From the NCBI GenBank assembly GCA_029907515.1, contig JARYLT010000008.1, positions 1-57,301 on the forward strand: a stretch of 57,301 nucleotides of DNA, given 5' to 3'. Positions 23,223 to 26,658 of this stretch are shown here, one piece after another. The position numbers and the translations under genes are program-made. Positions within the stretch are counted from its first letter, which is position 1; each line of letters begins with the position of its first letter. This DNA is from Spirochaetota bacterium. GTDB taxonomy: Bacteria > Spirochaetota > UBA4802 > UB4802. The notes beneath the pieces are model-generated. The model searched no databases, had not been told where the DNA came from, and saw nothing but the letters and a program-made list of their open reading frames with translations.

Positions 23223-24935
23223 ATGAAAAAGATAGACAAAACAAAAGAAAACATCAAAGTCGATGAACTTGATGAGAGAACCCGCAAGCAAATGTTTGAA
23301 AAATTTGTTCAGGCGGGAGGGAAAGTTATCCAGGAGCGTGAAAAGCCAACCACCAGGAACAGTAAAACTATAAAACCTGCTTCAAGAGTAGTACGACAAT
23401 CACAAGCAAAAACACCACCCAAAGAATCAAAGCAGCCAAAAATACAATCAGATGAAATTTTTGAAACCTGGCTGCAAAAAAAACTTTCCAGGTTACTTAT
23501 TCGCCTTCGTCTGTTCTTTCTTGGAGTTACTTCACTTTCTGCTGAGTACTGTAAACCTCGTTTTATGGATAACCTTATCCATACATATAAAACAGCACTT
23601 CTTCAATTTCAAGTACAGTATTATCACATCTTCAATCCACAGTACAGCAAGCAGGTTATAGCCAAACTGGATCAGATAAACCCCCTTTATTACGAACTGA
23701 TTGTGATGATTTCAAATATTTTTGACAGAACACGATTTAATGAAATTGAAGCCCTTCAACAATCAAATGATATGGTACATGTGCAAAAATTAAGAAACTA
23801 TCTCCTACCCATGTATAAAAGCCTCTACATTCTTTATCCGTACATCGAATTAATTGAATTAGCTTACCGCAATGCATTAGAAATACAGGCATCAGTAGAA
23901 AATCAAAAATCTACATCGTATGAAAAGAGGAAATATATCCGCAACAGCCTGTATATTACATTTTACAAATTTTTACCCCGGCTTCATATCCTGTTCTGTC
24001 ATTACTATAATGTCTATATTGATATAACAAGCCCCTATATCAGAACTATCTTACAAATAAATGATAGCGATCTGCCCGGCAAACGTAAAGCAGTAAAGCC
24101 TGGTGAAAAAGAAGAAGAACAACAACAAACACAGGAAGAGCAAAAAGAACCTTCAGAAATTCCGCAACACATTGCAAAAGGGCTTTCGCTTATGAATATA
24201 AGCACCAGTGATATAGCAGCACTATTTTCCAGGGATTCGTATGTACAGGCAAATCCAGCAGACAAAGCTATTATTACCTATGCACTTTTTAAAAAATTTG
24301 ACGATGAATTTTCCATTATACTCACCACAAATAAAATAAAATATAATATACAGTTCACCGATGCAGGTAAAATAGATTACAAAAACAAGCTTACAGATTG
24401 CTATAATGAATTGCGCAAAGTAACTGAAAGCTTTGAGGAATACAAACATGTTCTTGAAACCTACGAGCGCATACGTGCTGAAAAGCCAATCAACAATGCA
24501 CAGTATATTGAATATACAAAACGCTTAACACAGCTTGAAAAAAAGAAAAAGGTTGAATCAAGAAATATGCGCATGACCACAAAAGCCATCATGGACAGGA
24601 TTGCCGCTGAACTTGATGTTCTTATCCGTGACATGGATGAAGAAAATAAAATTATTGAAAACCCTCAAGATTTTCTTGAGTTTGATGTCAATGTTGAAGC
24701 AGTTCATCTGTTACAAAACAAAAAGGTGTATGAAGCAATACACCTGGCTTACTTTTATGCCTGTGCACTTTCTTACCGGCTTTCTGAAGGTGACCTGGCA
24801 GGTGATATTGAATTTAAAGATGGCGAGGCGCCTATTGGTATTGGCCAGCAAATAAATGTAACTGGCACAGTATCACAGGAAGAAAAAAAACAAAACCAAA
24901 CCTCAGTTATTAAGGAGCTTGAAGACCTTTTTTAA
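23223..24935 (+). CDS. hypothetical cytoplasmic protein, 570 residues
   Basis: Not recognised. The first ~80 residues are charged and low-complexity (MKKIDKTKENIKVDELDE; proline/lysine-rich), then a largely helical region rich in Tyr and Ile (residues ~100-280), an acidic Gln/Glu-rich linker (EEEQQQTQEEQKEPSE near residue 300), a second helical part with coiled-coil potential (~390-490) and a C-terminal SVIKELEDLF tail. No signal peptide or clear membrane segment. Its end overlaps the end of the convergent mnmD-like gene by 26 bp. The tail could be a docking peptide, but that is speculation. Confidence 0.65.
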   Translation: MKKIDKTKENIKVDELDERTRKQMFEKFVQAGGKVIQEREKPTTRNSKTIKPASRVVRQSQAKTPPKESKQPKIQSDEIFETWLQKKLSRLLIRLRLFFLGVTSLSAEYCKPRFMDNLIHTYKTALLQFQVQYYHIFNPQYSKQVIAKLDQINPLYYELIVMISNIFDRTRFNEIEALQQSNDMVHVQKLRNYLLPMYKSLYILYPYIELIELAYRNALEIQASVENQKSTSYEKRKYIRNSLYITFYKFLPRLHILFCHYYNVYIDITSPYIRTILQINDSDLPGKRKAVKPGEKEEEQQQTQEEQKEPSEIPQHIAKGLSLMNISTSDIAALFSRDSYVQANPADKAIITYALFKKFDDEFSIILTTNKIKYNIQFTDAGKIDYKNKLTDCYNELRKVTESFEEYKHVLETYERIRAEKPINNAQYIEYTKRLTQLEKKKKVESRNMRMTTKAIMDRIAAELDVLIRDMDEENKIIENPQDFLEFDVNVEAVHLLQNKKVYEAIHLAYFYACALSYRLSEGDLAGDIEFKDGEAPIGIGQQINVTGTVSQEEKKQNQTSVIKELEDLF

Positions 24936-25741: not shown

Positions 25742-26125
25742 TTACCTGCATTGTAACAAAGATGCTATCTCATCATCCAGCGTATAATCCACTATAACCA
25801 TATAGCCATCTTTTCTTTTTTCAACAAGCACAAGCTTCCGTGACACTACATGGCTGTCAGATTGGGCATACTGCTTTTTATTAATTGCCATTGCATTGCT
25901 GATAATTGCCTGGCAACGCTGATCTGCAATTTTCACTGCTTCTTGTGATATAGTATCGTTATTCAATTTCCCTGTGGGCAAAGAGTTTTTGGTTAATAAA
26001 ACCACAATACGTACAGTATTTTTATTAATGCAACCTTCCTTTCTTATATTTTCACTGTCAGATGAGCATGATTGCAACAAGATAAGAGCAAATACACAAT
26101 AAAAGTATACTATACATTTTTTCAT
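25742..26125 (-). CDS. small lipoprotein of unknown function
   Basis: 127 residues from the ATG at 26125 (AGGA 8 nt upstream; the frame also runs to 26146). Signal peptide MKKCIVYFYCVFALILLQSC with lipobox LQSC. The mature part (MAINKKQYAQSDSHVVSRKLVLVEKRKDGYMVIVDYTLDDE) matches no family I recognise. Lies 24 bp after yggU and 10 bp before mnmD, one transcription unit. Confidence 0.65.
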   Translation of the reverse strand: MKKCIVYFYCVFALILLQSCSSDSENIRKEGCINKNTVRIVVLLTKNSLPTGKLNNDTISQEAVKIADQRCQAIISNAMAINKKQYAQSDSHVVSRKLVLVEKRKDGYMVIVDYTLDDEIASLLQCR

Positions 26126-26149
26126 TACATTATTCCTGACAATCATTTG

Positions 26150-26425
26150 TCATTTATTAGTATATTGTTCAAGTCGCTTCATAAAAATACCTTCATTTAA
26201 CCCTTTAATTTTTATCTGCTTATTCCTTCCCTTTTCACCACGGACAATTTCAATAGATGATTTGGGAACATGTACTATTTCCGCCAAAAGTTCAACCAGC
26301 GCTTTATTAGCTTTGCCATCAACTGGTGGAGCATTCAGGTGAATGCGTAAAACACCGTTTTCAAGCTGCGCACTGTTTTTTGATGATTTGGGGATAACTT
26401 TCACAGTAATAATGCATTCTTCCAT
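26150..26425 (-). CDS. yggU: YggU/UPF0235 (DUF167) family protein
   Basis: 91 residues. The motif LNAPPVDGKANKALVELLA and the C-terminal EIVRGEKGRNKQIKI identify DUF167, small ubiquitous alpha/beta proteins of unknown function, possibly nucleic-acid binding. There is no clear Shine-Dalgarno. The terminator of the candidate RNA lies only 30-75 nt upstream, so this gene may depend on read-through of it. Confidence 0.87.
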   Translation of the reverse strand: MEECIITVKVIPKSSKNSAQLENGVLRIHLNAPPVDGKANKALVELLAEIVHVPKSSIEIVRGEKGRNKQIKIKGLNEGIFMKRLEQYTNK

Positions 26426-26455: not shown

Positions 26456-26620
26456 ATAAAAAAGAAAGAGGATGAAATTTCGGGAATTTCACCCTCTTTC
26501 TTTTCTGGATAACCTTTACCCTTACTTGTGGTACATCTTGTACCAAACTGACTTTCCGCAAGAGTACTTGCGGCTAGAACAGTAAGAATTTAGAGTTGTA
26601 AATAACCTAAAACTTACTCT
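26456..26620 (-). ncRNA. candidate structured RNA (sRNA or terminator-controlled leader)
   Basis: Minus-strand segment with a promoter in front, three helices and a terminator. Helix 1: AGTAAG (26613-26618) with CTTACT (26581-26586), continued after a small internal loop by TTTAG (26607-26611) with CTAAA (26589-26593). Helix 2: CCGCAAG, 4-nt loop, CTTGCGG (26556-26573). Helix 3: TGGTACA, 3-nt loop, TGTACCA (26529-26545). Then the terminator. No reading frame of note. It matches no RNA family I know; either an independent sRNA of ~165 nt or a regulatory leader for yggU-lipoprotein-mnmD. Confidence 0.5.
26458..26503 (-). terminator. intrinsic terminator of the candidate RNA
   Basis: Stem of about 16 bp (GAAAGAGG then TGAAATT paired across a 5-nt loop, with one A-C mismatch at 26472/26492), followed on the minus strand by TCTTTTTT. 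The other strand has a weaker T-run, so it may work in both directions. Confidence 0.7.
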
Positions 26621-26627
26621 TCGTTAT

Positions 26628-26658
26628 ATAATAAAATATTCTTTGAGTAAAAAGTCAA
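26628..26658 (-). promoter_or_regulatory. predicted promoter of the candidate RNA
   Basis: Minus strand TTGACT (26653-26658) and TATTAT (26628-26633), spacer 19 nt (slightly long). Predicted start near 26620, directly before helix 1. Confidence 0.4.

Follow-up and report, generated by a model that had tools for sequence, protein, structure and literature searches.

The window, here meaning the whole 57,301-nt stretch analysed (contig JARYLT010000008.1, from an uncultured member of the Spirochaetota), carries on its minus strand, ahead of yggU, a segment predicted to encode a small structured RNA. A sequence-only reading had described a promoter, a first helix (H1) with an internal loop, two tight hairpins (H2 and H3) and a terminator in this segment, and all were confirmed by reading the sequence and by folding. 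The segment had also been held to contain no reading frame, and no ORF of at least 60 aa is present. The weak stem H4 (26521-26507), whose sequence and presence vary among genera, was absent from that description. The features are as follows.

26628-26658, minus strand: predicted promoter, with TTGACT at 26658-26653, a 19-nt spacer and TATTAT at 26633-26628
26458-26622, minus strand: putative small RNA of ~165 nt, expected to start near 26622 and to end near 26458
26577-26622, minus strand: H1, a bulged 5' hairpin with internal loop; apical loop UACAACUC at 26600-26593, containing an invariant ACA
26556-26573, minus strand: H2, CCGCAAG-UACU-CUUGCGG, 7 bp with a 4-nt loop; three pairs changed on both sides among homologues
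26529-26545, minus strand: H3, UGGUACA-AGA-UGUACCA, 7 bp with a 3-nt loop; sequence and structure conserved
26507-26521, minus strand: H4, a weak, optional small stem, GGGUAA-AGG-UUAUCC, seen in minimum free energy (MFE) folds
26458-26506, minus strand: intrinsic terminator, 22-bp stem with a 5-nt loop, ending in TTTTTT (26463-26458)
26150-26425, minus strand: yggU (DUF167; PF02594, E = 8e-25), the next gene, outside the RNA gene

The start of yggU at 26425 lies 32 nt past the end of the terminator. Between yggU and mnmD is a short putative lipoprotein gene without a Pfam match (25742-26146, minus strand), and an ORF of similar size occupies this position in G001. On the plus strand, 23223-24935 encodes a 570-aa protein, also without a Pfam match, which has look-alikes with similar N- and C-terminal ends beyond yggU/mnmD in other families (L070 6486-8327 and L083 4936-6282); it is an uncharacterised conserved protein of the order.

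For the 170-nt stretch the folding energy is -64.3 kcal/mol (z = -8.64), a value that none of 200 shuffled sequences equalled, and for the body without the terminator (H1-H2-H3) it is -33.0 (z = -5.47; 0 of 300 shuffles as good). The site was not listed by a generic promoter/terminator scanner, which limits the spacer to 16-18 nt (19 nt here) and whose looser loop and T-run rule this terminator does not satisfy. The predicted promoter is supported by sequence conservation rather than by the scanner: all 17 aligned homologues have TTGAC, and TA/T..T is retained in the -10 region at a spacing of ~16-19 nt. A terminator stem stands at the equivalent place in the homologues that were read or folded in full.

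The earlier reading recognised no known class here. This agrees with Rfam 15, in which no family reached its gathering score for the whole window or for 12 homologue loci. The window's weak sub-threshold matches involve miRNA, snoRNA and sRNA models and fall mainly on the terminator hairpin, and locus L083 had none up to E = 1. The element resembles 6S RNA (RF00013) in length and as a free-standing gene, but lacks the long closing stem and central bubble of that RNA, folding instead as separate hairpins; the same genome (G000) has an RF00013 match of its own elsewhere, on G000:C155, that exceeds the gathering score, and 6S RNA was rejected. CsrA sponges of the CsrB/RsmZ type likewise have several hairpins and a terminator, and CsrA is present here, but they carry repeated GGA loops, which the new RNA does not; among the homologues read, just three (G038, G025 and G021) have GGA in the loop of H2, and this candidate was also rejected. 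The SAM riboswitch (RF00162) and other terminator-controlled leaders share the arrangement of hairpins before a terminator, from which the new RNA differs in having no constant downstream gene, no anti-terminator and no Rfam match. A literature search confined to open-licence papers, in which absence is weak evidence, found no description of an RNA like this from the group.

A DNA search located the element before yggU in all four of the other same-genus genomes searched, and also in a second genus of the focal family. A covariance model without the terminator (R1) found one further family through G038 (E = 0.0086). As the context in G038 is a STAS-domain gene, the RNA and, further on, yggU, the sequence behind STAS genes was read, and this exposed the RNA in G025, G006, G028, G035, G022, G013, G032, G030 and G018, as well as in record JALOTJ010000100 (L075), taken as G026 by STAS position and sequence. 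Searched over the order, a second model (R2) recovered the known set together with G009 (E = 4.1e-15) and G021 (E = 4.3e-6), both outside its training set and both read as complete elements. A third model, including the promoter (R3), identified one such RNA in 19 of the 46 genomes of the order, in five families, with E-values of 5e-18 to 4e-7 that indicate fit and not independent proof, since most of the matches are training sequences. By family, the RNA is present in all genomes of f1 (6/6), f2 (1/1) and f5 (8/8), in two of four in f4 and in two of 20 in f7, while the covariance models detected it in none of those of f3 (0/4) or f6 (0/3).

When R3 was applied to 393 genomes drawn from the phylum, just these 19 passed E = 0.02 and no other sampled spirochaete did so, in a scan that scored 9 to 11 candidates per genome and may miss diverged copies. 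R2 gave six further matches in the phylum scan (E 0.0036-0.045), and those read resemble chance. When the 27 negative genomes were scanned less stringently, all matches were weak; seven were read and resemble chance. The weak matches L025, L103-L108, L114-L117, L133-L138 and L152 were rejected as chance; those read lack the order promoter-H1-H2-H3-terminator or appear to be coding sequence. In G010, G019 and G023, the gap of ~30-75 nt between the STAS gene and the yggU that follows it is too short to hold the RNA. The named relatives that carry the STAS gene are Spirochaetes or Spirochaetota MAGs, apart from one labelled just 'uncultured bacterium'. Spirochaetia bacterium UBA2205 belongs to the focal genus, and its sequence behind STAS is that of G001. 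The order may correspond to UBA4802 of GTDB.

Comparison of G000 with four other species of the genus reveals 92-99% identity in the H1-H3 body and 96-100% in the terminator, against 68-88% in the first 250 nt of yggU, 65-77% in the spacer region and 64-71% in upstream DNA; these values are from semi-global alignments, in which unrelated DNA already scores a high baseline. The difference between the body and yggU indicates that the RNA is more tightly constrained than the coding gene next to it. Alignment-free MFE folding of single homologues gave H1-H2-H3 in most, with G025 and G006 as clear exceptions for H1; the z-scores of their bodies are unremarkable.

The earlier reading had proposed that related genomes be searched for covariation, and compensatory changes were found in both H2 and H3. 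In H3 (GGUAC..GUACC), 96.3% of alignment cells are paired, three of six pairs have changed on both sides, and the covariation score was reached by none of 500 shuffles. In H2 (CACC..GGUG in most relatives), three of five pairs have changed on both sides. The arms of H1 shift register between families in MAFFT alignments, which makes a pair counter unusable, so a curated arm test was applied instead. The arms differ almost wholly between families yet still pair, at 48 of 50 end pairs in 10 sequences; the cross-species mean is 2.5 of 5 and none of 100000 arm permutations reached the observed value, a figure that overstates the case because the arm ends were picked by eye to pair. Linkers and H1 arms vary freely; H2 and H3 hold particular sequences in addition to structure. 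In the H1 loop ACA is invariant in the H1 alignment, but family f5 has ACAUC or ACAGG in place of ACAAC, which makes a single conserved seed uncertain. The sequences of G005 and G001 suggested a pseudoknot pairing the AACUC loop with a GAGUU further downstream; it does not hold in G000 or G038 and was rejected on inspection.

The gene that follows the RNA varies. In f1, f2 and some genomes of f5 it is yggU. G038 and L070 (a UBA5368 record, equivalent to G028) have instead an MBL-fold gene on the opposite strand, L077 (equivalent to G025) has murB, also on the opposite strand, and G035 and G021 each have a chemoreceptor-like gene, which is on the opposite strand in the former and on the same strand in the latter; the MBL, murB and chemoreceptor genes were named by eye from their translations. 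Where it is not yggU, the downstream gene is mostly on the opposite strand and points at the RNA. Upstream, a STAS-domain gene precedes the RNA in the 14 genomes outside the focal genus that carry it, mostly within ~60-100 nt. In the focal genus the STAS gene is on another contig, and the RNA there keeps its own predicted promoter. Neither neighbour, therefore, defines the RNA. A SAM riboswitch (RF00162, 92-94 bits) lies ~140-400 nt behind STAS in five of five focal-genus genomes (L027, L028, L029, L030 and L031), where it occupies the place at which other genera carry the new RNA.

The variable downstream gene argues for an autonomous RNA gene and not for a leader or riboswitch of yggU. The earlier reading had left both open, as a free small RNA or a yggU leader; the first is upheld by the occurrence in 19 genomes, and the second does not hold in general, given the changing downstream gene and the lack of an anti-terminator pairing in the folds. 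Comparative sequence evidence supports a putative gene of ~150-170 nt, with its own promoter and its own terminator, that is kept independently of the neighbouring gene. That the segment is a real, autonomous structured RNA gene is held with high confidence.

What the RNA does can be proposed less firmly. We infer its transcription, its action in trans, the contact site in H1 and a partnership with Hfq. Transcription would proceed from the RNA's own sigma-70-type promoter and be ended by its own intrinsic terminator, and the product would work in trans as a regulatory small RNA, its shape maintained by the hairpins. The likeliest point of contact with mRNA targets would be the apical loop of H1, where ACAAC(U) is accessible; Hfq, encoded in these genomes, may bind at the terminator and its U-tract. 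Hfq genes are present in 43 of the 46 genomes, alike in those with and without the RNA, and CsrA genes in 42 of 46, in nearly all of either kind; as both occur irrespective of the RNA, a role for them is allowed but not proven. Taken as a whole, a trans-acting regulatory small RNA with the H1 loop as its contact site is the reading towards which the analysis leans, with some reserve.

The main rival is an autonomous non-coding RNA that binds, titrates or scaffolds a protein and does not base-pair, with H3 (near-invariant GGUAC..GUACC) and H2 (CACC..GGUG) as the protein sites. It gains this place because H3 keeps sequence beyond structural need; conserved sequences in both hairpins, freely varying linkers and H1 arms, and the frequency of CsrA are all consistent with it. 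On the other hand, the repeated loop motif typical of CsrA sponges is missing, and the RNA is not linked to any candidate protein partner. Binding of this kind is possible but the less probable of the two modes of action. A narrower proposal, in which a near-housekeeping, lineage-specific RNA has a dedicated protein partner that recognises the GGUAC hairpin and acts by a non-antisense mechanism, seems unlikely.

Proximity to STAS also raises the question of whether the RNA is, in origin or at present, a 3'-UTR-derived small RNA of that anti-sigma antagonist-like gene, sharing its terminator and acting in the same pathway. The 14 genomes in which it closely follows STAS would fit such a relationship. 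However, the RNA persists with its predicted promoter in the focal genus, away from STAS; in G035 the STAS gene has a terminator-like hairpin of its own before the RNA promoter; and STAS persists in genomes without the RNA. A duplex test of the RNA against STAS start regions gave no consistent signal. Derivation from STAS is accordingly regarded as very improbable.

Least probable of all is a cis-acting leader, a riboswitch-like attenuator controlling yggU-lipoprotein-mnmD through terminator read-through: the 32-nt distance to yggU in the focal genome, across which read-through may supply some yggU transcript, and the recurrence of the yggU-mnmD order would suit it, but several other genera have a next gene directed at the RNA, the folds contain no alternative anti-terminator pairing, the terminator is almost unchanged within the genus, and a same-genus relative (G003, L002) has a ~100-nt insertion between terminator and yggU.

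The preferred reading, a trans-acting regulatory small RNA, places the element beside the intergenic trans-acting small RNAs of other bacteria, which it resembles in its own predicted promoter, a length of ~100-200 nt, hairpins, a Rho-independent terminator with a U-tract, a narrow taxonomic range and autonomy from neighbouring genes. For many base-pairing small RNAs, structure is usually less well conserved from family to family than it is here.

The small RNAs of uncultured spirochaetes have hardly been described. The RNA family reported here, from uncultured Spirochaetota, is new and well supported and belongs to a familiar kind. With its covariation support, the conservation of its predicted promoter and of its terminator, and a genomic niche that is defined, it is of family grade and ready for a covariance model. 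As its body changes more slowly than the adjacent protein gene, it can be argued that this RNA matters to the cell.
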